Assembly (NCBI GenBank): GCA_017456895.1
Contig: JAFTIN010000028.1
Span: 1-41,457, forward strand
Direction of reading: 5' to 3'
Length of the DNA stretch: 41,457 nt
Origin: Clostridia bacterium
GTDB taxonomy: Bacteria; Bacillota; Clostridia; Oscillospirales; CAG-272
Shown here in pieces: positions 4,045-38,509 of the stretch. The notes under the pieces were generated by a model, which had not been told where the DNA came from, ran no database searches, and saw nothing but the letters and a program-made list of their open reading frames with translations. Within the stretch, counting starts at the first letter, position 1; the number at the start of each line of letters is the position of its first letter. Both the position numbers and the translations under genes were made by a program.

Positions 4045-4113
4045 ATCCCCGTGGGGATTTCATCTGCCCTCGGCAGATTTCATCGCGCAGCGATTTCATC
4101 CATTTATGGATTT
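4045..4113. repeat. array of four consecutive short hairpins with constant TTC linkers
   Basis: Four unrelated stems stand in a row: ATCCCC/GGGGAT (4045-4058), ATCTGCC/GGCAGAT (4062-4078), ATCGC/GCGAT (4082-4094) and ATCCA/TGGAT (4098-4111). Every stem begins with AT, ends with AT and is followed by TTC. The inner bases differ completely between units yet stay self-complementary. No coding frame explains this. Confidence 0.85.
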
Positions 4114-4162
4114 CATTGGCGCACCGCACCTTGGGTTCGCGTTATAGTGGCGGATGAGCTTA

Positions 4163-4289: not shown

Positions 4290-4318
4290 TAAAAACCGCC
4301 CGAAAAGCCTCGGGCGGT
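4290..4318 (-). terminator. terminator of the lysine ABC importer operon
   Basis: On the minus strand ACCGCCCGA / TCGGGCGGT (arms 4310-4318 and 4295-4303) with a 6-nt loop is followed by TTTTTATT. It lies 10 bases beyond the ATPase stop. Confidence 0.92.
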
Positions 4319-4328
4319 AAATATTTAT

Positions 4329-5066
4329 TTACAAAACCTTGGATAAGAACTGCTTTGTTCTCTCCTGCTTCGCATTCTTAAAGATCTCCTCCGGGCTGCC
4401 TTCCTCGACGATATATCCGCCGTCCATAAAGATAACCCTGTCGGAAACCTCTCTTGCAAAGCCCATTTCGTGAGTGACCACGATCATGGTGTATCCGCCC
4501 TTTGCTAAGTCCTTCATAACCTCGAGCACCTCGCCGACCATCTCGGGGTCGAGAGCAGAGGTGGGCTCGTCAAAGAGGATAACGTCGGGGTTCATAGACA
4601 GTGCTCTCGCGATAGCGATACGCTGCTTCTGTCCGCCCGAGAGCTGCGAGGGCTTAGCGTTTACGTACGCGCTCATTCCGACCTTCTCGATGTACTCGAG
4701 CGCTATTCTCGTTGCCTCCTCCTTAGTGCGCTTCAGCACAATCATCTGCGGCTTAACGCAATTATCCAGAGCAGTCATATTGTTGAAGAGATTAAACTGC
4801 TGGAACACCATAGCAACCTTGGATCTGTATTCGGTCAGCTTAACCGACTTCTCCTGTATATTCTTGCCCTCGTAGAGTATTTCGCCTCCGGACGGTGTCT
4901 CGAGCAGATTGATACAGCGGAGCATAGTGCTTTTTCCCGAGCCGGATGAGCCTATAATGGAGATAACCTCGCCGCGTGACACCTCAAGGTTGATATCCCT
5001 GAGCACCGCATTTTTACCGAATGACTTCTCGAGGTGGGAGAGCTTAATAACTGTATTTTCAGACAT
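4329..5066 (-). CDS. amino-acid (probably lysine) ABC transporter, ATP-binding protein
   Basis: 245 residues, normal length for the polar amino-acid (GlnQ/HisP) ATPase family. Walker A is GSSGSGKS (39-46), the Q-loop is in VFQQFNLF, the signature is LSGGQ near 143, Walker B with D-loop is [11 protein letters not shown], and the switch His is in VTHEMGF. It powers import through the adjacent permease at the inner face of the membrane. It is the last gene of the binding protein, permease, ATPase operon: its start lies one base beyond the permease stop, and its GGAGG site overlaps the permease 3' end. The lysine riboswitch at the operon head makes lysine the likely substrate; that assignment is inference from regulation, not from this sequence. 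Confidence 0.96.
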
Positions 5067-5067
5067 A

Positions 5068-5832
5068 TTATTTTGCCTCCTTTATTCTTATCTCGGCGTT
5101 TGGATCCGACTGCGAGCCGCATATTGTGTAGCTGTTTGATCCGGAGAGCTTCTTCTCGGCAAGTCTTAAAAGCCTTGTGATAGTAAAGGTCATAATAAAG
5201 TAGATGACACAGACAATAAGATAGGTCTCAAAGATTTGGAAAGTCATAGTCTGTATCTTTGTCGCCTGGTAGAACAGTTCCATAACACCGATGACGTTAA
5301 GAACCGACGTATCCTTAATATTGATGACAAACTCATTTGATACAGAGGGCAGGATATTCTTCATAACTTGGGGGATAATAACGTGCAGCATTACCCGGAA
5401 GTGATTCATTCCGCAGGAGTACGCCGCCTCAAACTGCCCCTTGTCAACCGAGATTATACCGCCTCTTACTATCTCGGTCATATAAGCTCCTGTGTTGATC
5501 GAAACGATAAAGATACCCGCAGGTATAAGGGGCAGGGTATTTCCACCGTTCATAAAAGCGTAGCCCCAGTATATAACCATGGCCTGTACCATCATGGGAG
5601 TTCCGCGGAACACCTCAACATATACACTGATTAGTACGTTTACACACTTTTGAATAATTGCTATAGCCTTGTTTTTGGACACCGGTATAGTCCTGATTAT
5701 TCCCGTACAAAGACCGATAATAAGACCTATTACCGTACCGATAAGGGCGATGAGCATAGTGTATCCGAGGCCCTTGAATAAGAGCCCTGAATACTTTTCA
5801 AGAATATTAGATATGTTGTTAAAGAAGTTCAT
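5068..5832 (-). CDS. amino-acid (probably lysine) ABC transporter, permease
   Basis: 254 residues of the HisM/GlnP permease family with about five membrane spans. The first is [18 protein letters not shown], and later ones are around residues 85-110 and 205-225. The cytoplasmic EAA loop that docks the ATPase is visible as [14 protein letters not shown], with [14 protein letters not shown] just before it. The C-terminal tail of about 25 residues after RLAEKKL is longer and more polar than usual. Only one permease gene is present, so the transporter is probably a homodimer. AAAAGG precedes the ATG. It is the middle gene of the riboswitch-controlled operon. Confidence 0.95.
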
Positions 5833-5857: not shown

Positions 5858-6727
5858 TTACTTTTTGTAGATGATTACGAGGTTGGAGTTGTAGTAACAG
5901 TCGGTGAAGTCAACCTCCGCCTCTCTTTCCGCTGTCGGGGACATACCTGCGATAATAGCGTCATAGGTGTTAGCCTGAACACCTGCGATGAGCGCATCCC
6001 ACTTCGCGGAGTAGATCTCGAGCTCCATGCCCATTTGTGCGGCAACGTACTTTGCGATCTGTACGTCGTAGCCGTTAGCGTAGAGGTCGCTGCCCTGGAT
6101 CTTAACCGCGCCGTTAGCATCGGTAAGCTGTGACCAGTTGAAGGGTGCGTATGCGCACTCCATAGCTATCTTGAGAGTCCCGTTTGAAGTGTCGGTGTTA
6201 GTGGAAGAAAGCGCGAGAGGCTCGGAAAGGACCGCATCGGTATTTGCGCTCATTACAACCGCCTGTTGCATAAGCTTTGCGCGTGTTTCCTGGCTGATAC
6301 CCGACAGGATCTCATTAACCGTTGCAACGTACTCGCTTCCGGTCTTGAAGGCAACGGCAATTCCCGTATCTGCATCGGAGGCGGTAAAGCCTGTGTCGTT
6401 GTTCTTAAGAGCAATGTAGGCAAGTCCGGGATTTTGCTCGATAACCGCGTAAGCTGTAGGCTCCTCGGCTACGTAACCGTCGATAGCACCGGAGTTAAGA
6501 GCAGTAAGAAGCTGAGTGAAGTCGGGGTATTCTCTTACGTCAACGCCCTCGGTCTGCTCGGTGAGAGCATCAAGGTGGAATGTGCCGGTCTGTGCCGCGA
6601 TAATTGCGCCGTTAAGATCGGAGAGCGACTTTACGTCCGCCATGTTGAACTTGTCTCTGCCGCCGCATGAGGTGAACGCGCAGAGCATAAGTGCCACAAC
6701 TAAAATAAGTGAGAAAAATCTTTTCAT
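5858..6727 (-). CDS. lysine-type substrate-binding lipoprotein with swapped lobe order
   Basis: 289 residues from the second in-frame ATG, chosen because AAGGATGG overlaps the first ATG (6739) and is well spaced for the second. It has a signal peptide and lipobox FTSC (Cys 21). The fold family is SBP_bac_3, but in the wrong order. Residues 34-156 match what is normally the later half: SLSDLNGAIIAAQTGT, ALNSGAIDGYV, then GIAVAFKTGSEY. A Ser/Thr/Asn-rich linker of about 28 residues follows. Residues 184-289 match the normal start (TLKIAMECAYAPF, GYDVQIAKYVA, WDALIAGV, YDAIIAGMS, VDFTDCYYNS) and stop exactly where the hinge should cross. Both lobes look complete, so this is a circular permutation rather than a fragment. 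It should bind lysine for the adjacent permease. Confidence 0.9.
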   Translation of the reverse strand: MKRFFSLILVVALMLCAFTSCGGRDKFNMADVKSLSDLNGAIIAAQTGTFHLDALTEQTEGVDVREYPDFTQLLTALNSGAIDGYVAEEPTAYAVIEQNPGLAYIALKNNDTGFTASDADTGIAVAFKTGSEYVATVNEILSGISQETRAKLMQQAVVMSANTDAVLSEPLALSSTNTDTSNGTLKIAMECAYAPFNWSQLTDANGAVKIQGSDLYANGYDVQIAKYVAAQMGMELEIYSAKWDALIAGVQANTYDAIIAGMSPTAEREAEVDFTDCYYNSNLVIIYKK

Positions 6728-6759
6728 GGTATAAACCATCCTTCAAAAAATATTTGAAA

Positions 6760-6795
6760 AATGAAACAGTCGAAGCACAAGGCGCTCCGACTGTT
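6760..6795 (-). terminator. riboswitch expression platform: intrinsic terminator
   Basis: On the minus strand AACAGTCGGAGC pairs with GCTTCGACTGTT (6784-6795/6765-6776) with a 7-nt loop, followed by TCATTTTTC. It lies between the lysine aptamer and the binding-protein gene and would stop transcription when lysine is bound. Confidence 0.85.
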
Positions 6796-6822
6796 CATAA
6801 ATATACTAAGAACTCAATCGAA

Positions 6823-6990
6823 AGCAGCACTCCACAAGAAACTTGTGACAGTCGGTGAGATATTATCCCATCGCCCAACAAGAGCCTCTCAAATGACTCC
6901 CATTTCGGCAGACAACCCTTTCACACGTGCCCCATTGACCGTTTGAGCGGTCGGTGCGCGGCTACTCTTGAAATCTGCGCCTCTAACATT
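6823..6990 (-). ncRNA. lysine riboswitch (L box)
   Basis: Read on the minus strand, the conserved lysine aptamer blocks occur in order: AGAGGCGC (6977-6984), CAAGAGTAGC (6961-6970), GTGTGAAAGGG (6916-6926), TCTGCCGAA (6904-6912), GACTGTC (6847-6853), then a CACAAG/TTGTG hairpin and GGAGTGCT. This matches the Bacillus lysC leader. A perfect promoter lies upstream and a terminator downstream, so free lysine should shut off the importer. The P1 pairing is weak as I drew it, so the exact ends are approximate. Confidence 0.94.
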
Positions 6991-7022
6991 CTTTGATTCA
7001 ACTATTCAATTTTCATATTGGC

Positions 7023-7051
7023 ATTATAGCATACAGTTATGGTAATGTCAA
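7023..7051 (-). promoter_or_regulatory. promoter of the lysine riboswitch and importer operon
   Basis: On the minus strand TTGACA (7046-7051), exactly 17 bp, TATAAT (7023-7028): a perfect consensus housekeeping promoter. Confidence 0.93.
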
Positions 7052-8833: not shown

Positions 8834-8862
8834 TTGACATATAAAATGAAAAATGATAAAAT
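8834..8862 (+). promoter_or_regulatory. promoter of the serine/alanine unit
   Basis: TTGACA (8834-8839), 17 bp, TAAAAT (8857-8862), 29 bases before the serine dehydratase start codon. Confidence 0.92.
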
Positions 8863-8891
8863 ATATAAAAATAAGCCTTCACGGAGGAACT

Positions 8892-10109
8892 ATGAAATCC
8901 ATTAGGGACGTATATAAAATTGGAAAAGGACCGTCAAGCAGTCATACTATGGGTCCTGCCCACGCTATGGAGATATTTGTCAGCGAGAATAAGGATGCCG
9001 ACGCTTTTCGCGTTGTTCTTTTCGGCTCTCTCGCCGATACGGGCAAGGGACACGGTACTGACCACGCCATAGAGATGGCCGCGGCGGGCAAGCCATGCGA
9101 GATAATCTTCAATACCAAAGACCGCGATCTCCCTCACGAGAATACTATGGATATATACGCAATACGAGGCGGAAAGGCCGATGCAAAGCCAATGCGAGTT
9201 ATGAGCATCGGCGGCGGTGACATCCGCATAGAGGGACGCGACCTCGGAGCCTCCGCTCCCGACGTTTATCCCGAGTCTACCTTTGCCGAGATATCCGAGT
9301 ATTGTAAGTCGCACGGCATTCGCCTCTCCGAATACGTCGTAATGCGTGAGGGCGAGGAAATATACAACTTCCTCTACGGCGTGTGGGACGTTATGCAGAA
9401 CGCTATTCACGAGGGACTCACCACCTCGGGTATCCTCCCCGGAGGTCTCGGTGTTGAGAGAAAGGCTCAGTACCTCTACAACCAGCGCCATATCGACGAG
9501 AGGGAGGTCACAAGAGAGAACAGGATCGTCTGTGCCTACGCCTACGCGGTCAGCGAGCAGAATGCCGATAACGGTACCATAGTTACCGCTCCCACCTGCG
9601 GCGCCTGCGCGGTTTTACCCTCGGTTTTACAGTATATGCAGAAAAAACACGCCTTCACCGACAAAAACATACTTGACGCCCTTGCGGTGGCGGGTCTTAT
9701 CGGCACCATAGTTAAGACCAACGCCTCGGTCAGCGGCGCGGAGTGTGGATGTCAGGCGGAGATAGGTACCGCTTGTTCAATGGCTGCCGCCGCTCTCGGT
9801 GAGCTGTTTGAGATGGGCATAGACCAGATAGAATATGCGGCTGAGATCGCCTTTGAGCATCATCTCGGACTTACCTGCGATCCCATCTGCGGTCTGGTGC
9901 AGATCCCTTGCATCGAGCGTAACGCCGTGGCCGCTATGAGAGCGATAAACGCTGTCAACCTTGCCAACTTCCTCTCCGGCTCGAGAAAGATATCCCTTGA
10001 TATGGTAATTGAGACTATGTATCAGACCGGTAAGGATCTCTCCCACCTCTACCGTGAGACGAGCGCGGGAGGACTTGCAAAGCTTTATAAGCAGAAGGAT
10101 GAAAAGTGA
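8892..10109 (+). CDS. sdaA: L-serine ammonia-lyase, iron-sulfur dependent, single chain
   Basis: 405 residues, converting L-serine to pyruvate and ammonia in the cytoplasm. The start is set by GGAGG six bases before the ATG at 8892. The N-terminal beta domain carries the hallmark GPSSSHTMGP (residues 13-22 region). The alpha domain carries TAPTCGACAVLP, SGAECGCQAEIG and CDPICGLVQIPC, which supply the Cys ligands of the oxygen-sensitive [4Fe-4S] cluster. Both domains are in one chain, as in the Escherichia coli type, rather than split as in Bacillus; the chain is slightly shorter than the usual ~455. It heads an operon whose last gene is a sodium:amino-acid symporter, consistent with taking up and deaminating serine or alanine. 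Confidence 0.96.
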   Translation: MKSIRDVYKIGKGPSSSHTMGPAHAMEIFVSENKDADAFRVVLFGSLADTGKGHGTDHAIEMAAAGKPCEIIFNTKDRDLPHENTMDIYAIRGGKADAKPMRVMSIGGGDIRIEGRDLGASAPDVYPESTFAEISEYCKSHGIRLSEYVVMREGEEIYNFLYGVWDVMQNAIHEGLTTSGILPGGLGVERKAQYLYNQRHIDEREVTRENRIVCAYAYAVSEQNADNGTIVTAPTCGACAVLPSVLQYMQKKHAFTDKNILDALAVAGLIGTIVKTNASVSGAECGCQAEIGTACSMAAAALGELFEMGIDQIEYAAEIAFEHHLGLTCDPICGLVQIPCIERNAVAAMRAINAVNLANFLSGSRKISLDMVIETMYQTGKDLSHLYRETSAGGLAKLYKQKDEK

Positions 10110-14243: not shown

Positions 14244-14431
14244 TGTCAATATATCATCCTTTCCAAAAAAATATGCTGTCACTATTTTCTTCCCACCGAG
14301 CGCGGATTATTCACCATATTCCAAAAAAAGAGAAAATCGACAAATATAGAGGAAAAGGGAAGGGGGTGTCTTTTATTTAATTTTATATATAATCTTAATA
14401 ATATTTCATTTTATCGTAGGTGGACAATTCG

Positions 14432-14460
14432 TTGACTTTTATAACCACGCGTGGTATAAT
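14432..14460 (+). promoter_or_regulatory. promoter with built-in palindromic operator
   Basis: TTGACT (14432-14437), 17 bp, TATAAT (14455-14460). The spacer contains the perfect palindrome ACCACGCGTGGT (14444-14455), centred on CG, which extends imperfectly to about 21 bp. A dimeric repressor bound here would block RNA polymerase. The rest of 14283-14431 shows only AT-rich sequence. Confidence 0.8.
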
Positions 14461-14503
14461 TAATAAAAAATGCCCGTGGGCAATAAAGAGAAAGTGGATG
14501 GTT

Positions 14504-17500
14504 ATGAAAAGAACTGTAAAGCTTGCTTTGTTAACTTTGTCGGTCTTAATTGTCGGCGTCCTTACGCTTACCGCTTGTAGCTTTGGATCCGGCTGCACTC
14601 ACAAAAACGCCGTGACGATCGACCGTGCCGTAGAGCCTACCTGCTCGTCCGACGGCCTTACCGAGGGCAGGCATTGTTCTGACTGCGGTGAGATCATCAT
14701 TAAACAGGAGACGATAAAGGCTCTTCCTCATACAGAGGTTATCGACGAGGCTGTCGAGCCCACCTGTACAGAGCCCGGCCTTTCCAAAGGAAAGCATTGC
14801 TCGGTCTGTGACACCGTTATAGTGGAGCAGAAGGTTCTTGACGCATACGGCCACCTCGAGGACACAAGGCTCGGCTACAGCGCCACCTGTACCTCTACAG
14901 GCCTTACCGATGAGGTATATTGCACTATCTGTGATGAGATAATAACCGCTGCTGTCGAGATCCCCGAAAAGGGACACGACTATGGCGACTGGGTCGTGAC
15001 CAAGCAGCCTACCGAATCAGCAGACGGAGAAAAGCGCCGAGACTGTAAAAACTGTGACGCTTACGAGACGGATATAGTTTCTTCTATCGTCCATACACAT
15101 GATACGAAAACCGTTATTAAAGCTGTCGCGCCTACCTGCACAAGCTCCGGTCTCACCGAGGGAAGAAAGTGCTCCGTGTGCGGCGAGACAGTAATCGCTC
15201 AACAGACCGTTCCCGCATCCGGCCATTCGTATCAGACAAACGTTGTTTCTCCCACCTGTACACAGAGCGGATATACCAATCACACCTGTTCCGTCTGCGG
15301 AGATTTTTATAATGACAATATGGTTGGAGCTCTCGGTCACATAGAGGCGGAAAAGCCCGCAGTAACTCCTACCTGTACCGATCCGGGACTTACAAAGGGA
15401 GTGTATTGCTCACGCTGCGGCGAAACTATTAAAGCTCAGCAGACGGTTAGTTCTCTCGGTCATAGCCACGCTATCTCCGAGGTTCCCGGTAGCGACGGTA
15501 CCTATGCCTCCGTCTGTACAAGATGCGGCGACGTTGAGTCCTACGTTACCTCTATCAAGTACGAGGATTACGGAGCAGTAGGCGACGGTGTTACCGATGA
15601 CTCCGAGGCTATCCGTAAGGCGCATAATGCGGCTAATGCCGCAGGACTTCCCGTTGAGGGCAAGGCAGGCGCAACATATTATATTGGCGCAATTTCGCAA
15701 ACTATAGTTATCAAAACCGATACAAACTGGAACGGTGCGAGCTTTATATTTGATGACAGTACTATCCGTTGGGATGATACAAAGCTCAGAAATATATGTG
15801 TATTTACCATAGCCCCCGACACCGCCGCCAGGAGCGTGAGCGTTCCCTCCGCCTTAGCAAAGAACGGTCTTTCCAAGGGGCAGACTAATATTGGTATGAC
15901 GTTCTCCGAGCCTTGTATGATCAAGATCGAGAACTCTAAAGAAAGGATCTACATACGCAACGGTGTAAACTCTACCAACGGTGCTTATAAAAATGAGATG
16001 ATTCTCGTTGACAAGAACGGCAACGTTGATCCCTCCACACCTATTCAGTTTGATTATTCCTCTATAACCACGATCATCGTATACTCCATAAACGAAAAGG
16101 CTATAAGAGTTGGAAACGCTACCTTCACTACCATAGCTCCCAATCCCAAGGAGCAGGATCCCAATTTCGAAAACAACAACACGAGCTTCTTTAACCGTGG
16201 CCTGTGTATTGAGCGCTCCAATACTACGGTTTACGACGTTGAGCATATCGTAGAAAACGAGATGATGACTATCGAGACCGACAGGAACGGTGATGGAGTC
16301 ATTGATAAATGGGGCGCTGATAAATCTTACGGCGTTACGTATAACGGATTCTATTCTTTCAACAACGCGTATAACGTTACGATGCAGGACTGCGTTGTTG
16401 AGGGACACCAAGCGTACAGCTTCTGGCAGGATCTTAACGGCGTGTCAACTCGTAACGAGGTAGGTAACTACGATATTACGGCAAGTAGATGTGTCAACAT
16501 CAATTTCATAAGAGTAAGACAGTATGAGAACGAGGCGACCGGAGAGGTGATCACCAACAGATTTATGTATCACGGTATCATGGGTACAAACTGGTGCCGT
16601 AACATGGTTCTTGACGGATGCTACCTCGACCGCTTCGACTCTCACCAGGGTATGTATAACGCCACACTTAAGAACTCCACCTTCGGCTTTGGTATACTCG
16701 TGATCGGCGGTGGTAAGCTCTATATCGAGGATGTGACCCGTGTAAGCGGATCGGCATTTATCCATCTCCGTATGGACTACAGCAGCTATTTTAACGGTGA
16801 CGTCGAGATCGTTAACTGTGATATGTCCTCCGAGCTTGCTTATATCGTTGAGGGCAAGTGGCAGAGCTTTGATTGCGGTCTTCCAAACCATATGATCAAC
16901 TCGCTTGTGATCAACGGACTTACTGTTGACCGTAACAGTATTAGTCTTTACAACATTTACGGCGCTACCGTCGACTCTCTTACCGATTCTGTCAATCCGC
17001 TTATCCTTCCTACGTATATTAAGGTTGACGGAGTAAAGAGGCCTAACGGCGCTAACGTATTCGTGAACGTATCCTCACCTGCCGATCTCTTTGCGGGAGT
17101 TGAGATTGATATGCATAAGCACACCTGGGACGACGGAGTCGTAGTAACTCCAGTGTCGACGACCAACTGTAAGTCGGGAACAATCAAATATACCTGCACG
17201 GATCCCGACTGTGGGGAAACAAGGATAGGCGTCATTCCTTCGACAAAGCCCCATTCCTCACTTACACATACCATCTCGGACGGTATCATCACCTACACCT
17301 GTCCTACCTGTAACGCGAGCTATACGCCTGACGTGAACGGCGTCTCGGACGGTTCGGATTATTCCGTTATTCAGGGCGGAGGAGCCAACGCGAGCCGTGG
17401 ATATACCACCGGTGGCTCGGATAATCCTCTTATGGAGGACGGAGTATATAAGCTTCTCAAGGCTAATTCCAACGCTTCGACACAGCTCGAGCTTTGGCTT

Positions 17501-18031
17501 CCCTCCAAGAGCAACGGACTCAACGATCTGTCGTCGGCAAATAACGCCGTTGGCTATCTTTCCTTCAAGCTTAACGCCTATACTGATCACTCGTCCGGCT
17601 TCTCGATGAAGTTCGTTGACATCGAATCGAACGTAGGCGCAAACCGTTGGAAAGAGGGCGGTGTTATCACCGAGAACTTCCTTACCGTTTCCGCTCCTGT
17701 TACCAGTGGCTGGCTCACCAAAACCACAAAGGTTACTATCTCCGGTTGGGGAGGAACTCTCAAGACGGTCGACGTGACCAAAAACGCGGATAGCTTCACC
17801 GGTTGGATCGATATTAAGCTCGTTATTGAGCTCAGCGCAGAAAATGATACGGTAACCGTCCACTACTACGTCGACGGATCTTACGTAAGGAGCGCCAGCA
17901 AGCCTCTTACCACCCTGGCTAATACCATCAGCGGTGTATACGTCTCAGGATATACCCAGAGTCAGGGCAGCGGACTTATGCTTGACGATGTAGCCTTTAG
18001 CTGCTCATTCGGTAAAAAGGTATCCGACTGA
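14504..18031 (+). CDS. large lipoprotein: Cys modules, pectate-lyase-like beta-helix, C-terminal beta-sandwich-like region
   Basis: 1175 residues from MKRTVKLALL, with lipobox LTAC (Cys 25), so it is surface-anchored. The start at 14504 fits AAGTGG six bases upstream; 14498 is also possible. Residues ~31-345 hold eight Cys-pair modules of the type PTC-x11-CSxCG-x14-GH; number 4 lacks the first Cys and number 8 is short. From ~352 the sequence YGAVGDGVTDDSEAI marks the start of a pectate-lyase-type right-handed beta-helix that runs to ~862 with repeated Asn-rich strands. Another Cys-pair region follows (~871-945), then a ~220-residue LamG/concanavalin-like region. It probably binds or cleaves a polysaccharide outside the cell; the catalytic residues were not identified. 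A single-gene unit with an operator-bearing promoter. Confidence 0.93.
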   Translation: MKRTVKLALLTLSVLIVGVLTLTACSFGSGCTHKNAVTIDRAVEPTCSSDGLTEGRHCSDCGEIIIKQETIKALPHTEVIDEAVEPTCTEPGLSKGKHCSVCDTVIVEQKVLDAYGHLEDTRLGYSATCTSTGLTDEVYCTICDEIITAAVEIPEKGHDYGDWVVTKQPTESADGEKRRDCKNCDAYETDIVSSIVHTHDTKTVIKAVAPTCTSSGLTEGRKCSVCGETVIAQQTVPASGHSYQTNVVSPTCTQSGYTNHTCSVCGDFYNDNMVGALGHIEAEKPAVTPTCTDPGLTKGVYCSRCGETIKAQQTVSSLGHSHAISEVPGSDGTYASVCTRCGDVESYVTSIKYEDYGAVGDGVTDDSEAIRKAHNAANAAGLPVEGKAGATYYIGAISQTIVIKTDTNWNGASFIFDDSTIRWDDTKLRNICVFTIAPDTAARSVSVPSALAKNGLSKGQTNIGMTFSEPCMIKIENSKERIYIRNGVNSTNGAYKNEMILVDKNGNVDPSTPIQFDYSSITTIIVYSINEKAIRVGNATFTTIAPNPKEQDPNFENNNTSFFNRGLCIERSNTTVYDVEHIVENEMMTIETDRNGDGVIDKWGADKSYGVTYNGFYSFNNAYNVTMQDCVVEGHQAYSFWQDLNGVSTRNEVGNYDITASRCVNINFIRVRQYENEATGEVITNRFMYHGIMGTNWCRNMVLDGCYLDRFDSHQGMYNATLKNSTFGFGILVIGGGKLYIEDVTRVSGSAFIHLRMDYSSYFNGDVEIVNCDMSSELAYIVEGKWQSFDCGLPNHMINSLVINGLTVDRNSISLYNIYGATVDSLTDSVNPLILPTYIKVDGVKRPNGANVFVNVSSPADLFAGVEIDMHKHTWDDGVVVTPVSTTNCKSGTIKYTCTDPDCGETRIGVIPSTKPHSSLTHTISDGIITYTCPTCNASYTPDVNGVSDGSDYSVIQGGGANASRGYTTGGSDNPLMEDGVYKLLKANSNASTQLELWLPSKSNGLNDLSSANNAVGYLSFKLNAYTDHSSGFSMKFVDIESNVGANRWKEGGVITENFLTVSAPVTSGWLTKTTKVTISGWGGTLKTVDVTKNADSFTGWIDIKLVIELSAENDTVTVHYYVDGSYVRSASKPLTTLANTISGVYVSGYTQSQGSGLMLDDVAFSCSFGKKVSD

Positions 18032-36686: not shown

Positions 36687-38509
<1,823 letters not shown>

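Follow-up and report, generated by a model that had tools for sequence, protein, structure and literature searches.

Few bacterial receptors have been studied as much as the amino-acid solute-binding proteins, whose fold is also that of animal glutamate receptors. In the SBP_bac_3 family the standard chain order is the N-terminal half of lobe 1, then lobe 2, then the C-terminal helices. A gene at 5858..6727 on the minus strand of contig JAFTIN010000028.1 (assembly GCA_017456895.1, a Clostridia bacterium of the Oscillospirales lineage CAG-272; the whole 41,457-nucleotide stretch is called the window here) does not have this order. A first-pass annotation had read its product as a circularly permuted lysine-binding lipoprotein, an arrangement that it took to be undescribed. 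This raises the question of whether the chain is really permuted, and whether the case stands alone. We find it very probable that the gene encodes a permuted SBP_bac_3 protein, predicted to be lipid-anchored and to form one normal two-lobed pocket, that likely captures lysine for the ATP-binding cassette (ABC) importer encoded downstream, and that has an origin separate from that of at least one further permuted form in Clostridia.

Chain order and predicted fold

The window protein was compared with a profile of 247 positions made from 46 normal-order relatives. It matched in two pieces and in reverse order: residues 33-166 correspond to profile positions 111-244 (113 bits), and residues 188-294 to positions 2-108 (177 bits), residues of these matches being numbered on an open reading frame (ORF) with one extra residue in front. 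The first block (6245..6646, minus strand) holds lobe 2, with the motifs SLSDLNGAIIAAQTGTFH, AEEPTA and NNDTGF, together with the C-terminal part of lobe 1. The second (5861..6181, minus strand; PF00497 positions 2-92) holds the N-terminal half of lobe 1, with GTLKIAMECAYAPFNW, AGMSPTAER and NLVIIYKK, and ends at the hinge. Between the two profile matches lies a linker from the old C-terminus to the old N-terminus (6185..6244, minus strand), which is also where the rotation optimum falls. The chain thus runs from the lipobox through lobe 2, the C-terminal helices and the linker to the N-terminal half of lobe 1. When the mature chain, with its signal peptide removed, was rotated stepwise and scored against the normal-order profile, rotation at the linker merged the two matches into one over positions 2-244 and raised the score from 177.4 to 299.9 bits. 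Starts at residues 159-189, in the linker, scored within 5 bits of each other, and a normal-order control protein gained nothing (369.3 to 369.7 bits).

Both lobes are complete, and the protein is a permuted variant of SBP_bac_3 and not a standard member. The first-pass annotation was right on these points and in placing the chain end at the hinge; its "second lobe first" has to be widened, since lobe 2 is followed in the first block by the C-terminal helices of lobe 1. The linker does join the old termini, but the profile matches and the rotation scan give it about 20-25 residues (166 to about 186) and not about 28. Solved SBP_bac_3 proteins, among them LAO/ArgT, HisJ and GlnH, belong to the same family by sequence but have the normal order and are matched block by block; in AncQR (4zv1), also of normal order, residues 108-219 correspond to query 35-150 and residues 9-104 to query 186-293. 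A normal relative (L042) reads NLVIITKK followed directly by DSSYASATSLADF through the break point, and the window chain ends in NLVIIYKK while its mature part starts with CGGRDKFNMADVKSLSDL. On these alignments, the first hinge crossover is where the chain now begins and ends, with little sequence absent.

Domain models recover only part of this. At E<=1 the Pfam matches of the window protein are PF00497, PF10613 and PF03466 only, and PF00497, although well above its cut-off (76.9 against 26.4 bits), covers residues 190-293 only. The Lys/Arg/Orn-binding model TIGR01096 gives 107 bits, below its cut-off of 256. With 105.9 bits for the normal-order relative L045, this score cannot tell the permuted from the normal form. 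Both blocks are under purifying selection, with a ratio of nonsynonymous to synonymous substitution rates (dN/dS) of 0.07 in each against the homologue L026 and of 0.07-0.22 in the other non-saturated pairs. In the linker, whose sequence varies among homologues, dN exceeded that of either block in all five pairs. A LALSS-like stretch in the linker was considered as a signal-peptide relic, and the normal-order tails examined gave this no clear support.

An AlphaFold2 model of the monomer (predicted local distance difference test, pLDDT, 91.7) has OpuAC (2b4m), a single bilobed protein, as its best end-to-end fold match; the alignment covers residues 27-293, and the two agree in chain order and overall fold. 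The model gives no sign that the halves are two non-interacting domains, the outcome that would have spoken against the first-pass reading, and it suggests that both blocks of a chain fold together about a single ligand site. The likeness to OpuAC is one of fold: identity is 8% over the aligned residues, and the window protein has no OpuAC Pfam match at E<=1. The 50 Foldseek matches listed for the model have template-modelling (TM) scores of 0.25-0.42 by query length, in a search that is not permutation-aware; the absence of a chain from these structure comparisons carries no information. The pocket could in principle be built differently, in a domain-swapped dimer that joins block 1 of one chain to block 2 of another, each chain having one covalent crossover; the 20-25-residue linker and the single crossover may make such swapping easy, and engineered permuted lobes of a ribose-binding protein are reported to be in monomer-dimer equilibrium, one of them swapping segments (PMC9815098). 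We regard this as improbable: the single-chain model, computed for the monomer alone, is confident and aligns over its whole length with OpuAC, and the permuted glucose-binding lipoprotein TpMglB-2 was a monomer under its authors' conditions (PMC4990184). We favour the single-chain pocket, with lysine as the probable ligand, and the protein presumably does the usual work of a lysine-binding lipoprotein in an ABC importer.

Relatives, break points and number of origins

The search for homologues of the same order, a check that the first-pass annotation had proposed, was productive. A database search found 6415 homologues, the 120 best of which are 276-377 aa long, mostly near 290, and align with at least 88% of the query in a single local alignment. 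From contigs of named genomes, the best 80 of 226 matches gave 79 loci (NCBI contig labels being used as given, e.g. Erysipelotrichaceae for L037): 34 are permuted like the window gene, 44 have the normal order, and one (L040) is a fragment. Among the collected loci there are 43 distinct proteins with the window order. That 34 of 79 related loci and 43 distinct proteins share the swapped order excludes chance. A lysine riboswitch lies upstream in 33 of the 34 permuted loci, the remaining one (L033) beginning inside the gene at a contig end, and in 13 of the 19 normal-order loci tested, including all nine of the nearest group. Permease and ATPase genes follow in both forms, some loci ending before one or the other. 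The closest normal-order proteins, of lysine type (L038, L039, L041-L047), are 50-54% identical to the window protein after rotation, have its motifs in both lobes, and share its riboswitch and operon; they differ in running from the N-terminal half of lobe 1 through lobe 2 to the C-terminal helices.

How widely the form occurs was examined by genome-wide alignment searches, in which at most 6 to 16 candidates were scored per genome, so that absence is not proof. At E<=1e-30, 35 of 146 genomes of the same family had a match: 12 were permuted, 18 read as normal-order, and five (G331, G365, G383, G361 and G355) were matched by single blocks and were assigned to neither class. Each of the 12 permuted-form genomes had one match, and no normal-order copy was found in them at that threshold. 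A search of the class at E<=1e-60 recovered the window form from one of 391 genomes, its own, and three of 295 genomes sampled from the taxonomic order had it, all of them of its own family. The form looks confined to one family. Because both forms have the same riboswitch and operon, and the 12 genomes have the permuted match only, the permuted gene looks like an in-place replacement of the normal gene within this family.

The window gene is not the only permuted one in its genome. At the sensitivity used, this fragmented, 65% complete assembly has two SBP_bac_3 genes only; the second (L001:1447-2313, minus strand; contig 3, 21847-22710), adjoined by its own permease and ATPase, runs from the C-terminal helices through the N-terminal half of lobe 1 to lobe 2 and ends near the second crossover. 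A model of a protein 98% identical to it (P0122) reached a moderate pLDDT of 76.3, and its residues 101-288 align, as expected, with LAO 2-176. We call this order type B and that of the window protein type A. Full-length type B was found in 30 of the 146 family genomes and, at E<=1e-55, in 27 of the 391 class genomes, both counts including the own genome. The same taxonomic order also has type-A proteins that are not of the window clade, namely L136 and L158-L161, and proteins broken at a third point, A', inside lobe 2 (L090, L098, L110). The boundaries fall at profile positions 109-117 for A, 129-137 for A' and 200-206 for B, and, as read from these alignments, Clostridia hold at least three break-point classes of permuted SBP_bac_3. 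It follows from the chain order of types A and B that both lobes would be continuous in them and that a single crossover, not two, would connect the lobes.

Rotation gains in type B are modest (49.7 to 64.6 bits for L001). L103 and L111 were assigned to it by eye, with rotation gains below 3 bits and weak N-terminal matches (5.1 and 3.1 bits); L111 had been called normal-order automatically, and the classes of three cut pieces (L149sbd, L150sbd and L155sbd), for which the automatic calls were wrong or doubtful, were likewise set by eye. Six loci carrying other permuted genes, with one gene present in two of them, gave no Rfam match. At L211:588-2370 (minus strand) neighbouring type-B and A' genes precede one permease, and permuted SBP_bac_3 is fused to a permease in one ORF both in type B (L189, L191, L192) and in type A (L149, L150).

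Trees were computed from rotated permuted and normal-order sequences, a quick one with 78 rows and a careful one, together with approximately unbiased (AU) tests, with 71. Seven rows were dropped: L020, L103, L151, L099 and L155sbd for long branches, L117 as identical to L044, and L150sbd for gaps; the long branch of L020 is probably due to a badly cut rotated stretch. In the careful tree the window clade (support 69/68, and 99 in the quick tree) groups with normal-order lysine-type proteins, and a 100/100 branch splits them from all other permuted proteins. The AU tests rejected a clade of the window type with the other type A (p 1.5e-7), with all other permuted proteins (6e-89), and with B and A' (1.8e-39). 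A clade of the other A with A' and B was weakly rejected (p 0.023); B alone (p 0.067) and the other type A alone (0.09) were not. A' is nested within B in the best tree (joint clade 99/94), so a break point can shift again after a first permutation, yet B as a clade of its own is not rejected.

It might be supposed that one ancient permutation lies behind all these genes, the different break points and the normal-order relatives having come about by later cuts or reversals. All classes are found in one taxonomic order, the position of A' inside B suggests that break points may move, and type-B and A' genes stand side by side in L211. Such a history is nevertheless very unlikely, since the AU tests reject it for the window family against the other permuted forms and the 100/100 branch puts the window type on the side of the normal-order lysine proteins. 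Because tree and tests separate the window family from the other permuted forms, there were at least two independent permutations; there were probably three, and the AU tests do not settle the exact number of events.

The operon in the window

Recurrence in independent assemblies also refutes the idea that pieces of two adjacent genes were misjoined by assembly or gene calling, which we consider next to impossible even in so fragmented an assembly: as the first-pass annotation had argued, this is no assembly join, the same order being present in 34 named-genome loci and in 12 of the 146 family genomes (a few genomes being common to both sets), with dN/dS low on either side of the linker.

The gene is an intact ORF of 289 aa (ATG at 6727) or 293 aa (ATG at 6739); the start was taken at 6727, since GAAGG (6744-6740) lies 12 nt before that ATG and leaves no gap to the one at 6739. 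The first 20 codons (6668..6727, minus strand) are predicted to encode a signal peptide, with an FTS-C lipobox, read from the sequence, whose cysteine codon is 6665-6667; at least 90% of 43 homologues have this cysteine. Directly downstream on the same strand are genes for an ABC permease (5068..5832; PF00528, 83.5 bits) and an ABC ATPase (4329..5066; PF00005, 130 bits), and a terminator-like site with a 10-bp stem and a T run (4295..4318). Upstream, the lysine riboswitch claimed in the first-pass annotation is there: an RF00168 aptamer at 6817..6993 scores 86 bits against a gathering cut-off of 30 and spans the full model, 1-182. It is followed at 6764..6796 by a hairpin from a pattern scan, a 15-bp stem and then CATTTTTCAA, that is likely its intrinsic terminator. 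The scan found three sites of this type against 2.6 in shuffled sequences, and the 92 nt from 6830 to 6739 fold at -31.3 kcal/mol (z -4.8). A sigma-70-type promoter-like site (7023..7051; TTGACA-17-TATAAT with TG before the -10) has 12 of 12 consensus bases; it is a consensus match only, from a scan with three such sites against 4.8 in shuffles. Together these minus-strand elements, from 7051 to 4295, look like a single transcription unit that encodes an amino-acid ABC importer. By this anatomy, and by comparison with known lysine riboswitches, high lysine would terminate transcription at the riboswitch and shut the operon off.

Slightly 3' of the operon there is a Gut-1 RNA match (4052-4118, minus strand; 50.4 against a gathering cut-off of 50). 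Elsewhere in the window, a single-chain serine dehydratase (8853-10109, plus strand) matches only positions 1-71 of 155 in its beta part, which precedes the alpha part; a 1203-aa ORF (14420-18031, plus strand) has no Pfam match at 1e-6; and a 431-aa ORF (36687-37982, minus strand) has a uracil phosphoribosyltransferase at residues 229-430 and about 228 N-terminal residues with no Pfam match at 1e-6.

Precedents, proposed origin and meaning

The claim of novelty made in the first-pass annotation has to be divided. Permuted binding proteins are known elsewhere, and the window gene is one of a clade. TpMglB-2 of Treponema pallidum (Tp0684, Type Ic / Cluster Bc) is a natural permuted type I lipoprotein that its authors report to bind glucose, to change conformation and to have relatives in Gram-positive and gut bacteria (PMC4990184). 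It belongs to another family, and its permutation adds a fourth crossover, whereas the window protein would go from two to one; by sequence the latter is no member of Type Ic / Cluster Bc. Permutation is also reported among glycine-betaine-binding proteins including OpuAC (PMC2395249). The engineered RBP-CPN and RBP-CPC (PMC9815098) have lobes made continuous by permutation, as here, but are separate lobes of a type I protein. Searches of the open-licence PubMed Central literature, outside which permuted binding proteins may be described in subscription papers, found no report of a permuted SBP_bac_3 protein, and the available part of PMC9732360 does not mention natural permutation. Permuted solute-binding proteins are thus known as a kind; as far as searched, what is new is permutation in SBP_bac_3, the positions of the breaks and their recurrence.

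The established model for the origin of circular permutants is a tandem duplication whose outer parts are then lost. In the window family, the starting point would have been a lysine-binding gene of normal order behind the same riboswitch, duplicated head to tail and then stripped of its outer parts, leaving new ends at the first hinge crossover. This would give a Venus flytrap in which the chain crosses over once and not twice and the lipid anchor sits beside the hinge. Clostridia would have at least one further, separate permutation of this fold, such as that of L001, broken near the other hinge crossover. This route fits three observations. In the GlnPQ tandem SBD1-SBD2 (6h30), each domain of which differs from the permuted proteins in having the normal order, permuted profiles align across the junction (A1 31-286 with chain 100-326, A2 47-277 with 187-394), as duplication predicts. 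Fused arrays are present in related genomes, in normal phase (L153, L154) or with permuted phase at start and end (L143-L148, L162); the latter each carry several SBP_bac_3 units in one ORF of about 750-1220 aa, and all four checked with Pfam (L144, L147, L148, L162) continue into the permease, L144 and L147 also into the ATPase. The third observation is the adjacent pair in L211. The collected loci showed no intermediate within the clade of the window protein.

The window protein is one case of recurrent permutation in Clostridia. On balance, and by a narrow preference, we hold that SBP_bac_3 has there been permuted repeatedly and independently with a moving break point (A at crossover 1 at least twice, once of these in the window family; A' inside lobe 2; B near crossover 2), that head-to-tail arrays are the intermediates, and that some bacteria have re-cut versions only. 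Annotation sees such proteins only in part. Natural permutants offer ready-made permuted scaffolds for biosensors. Permutants with continuous lobes are useful for testing how the fold gained its hinge motion (PMC9815098), and the permuted proteins and their normal relatives, alike in riboswitch and operon, form matched pairs in which the role of the double crossover in that motion can be tested. On the reading given here, types A and B turn a two-crossover trap into one with a single crossover, and the double crossover of the hinge, thought important for its motion, would be dispensable.
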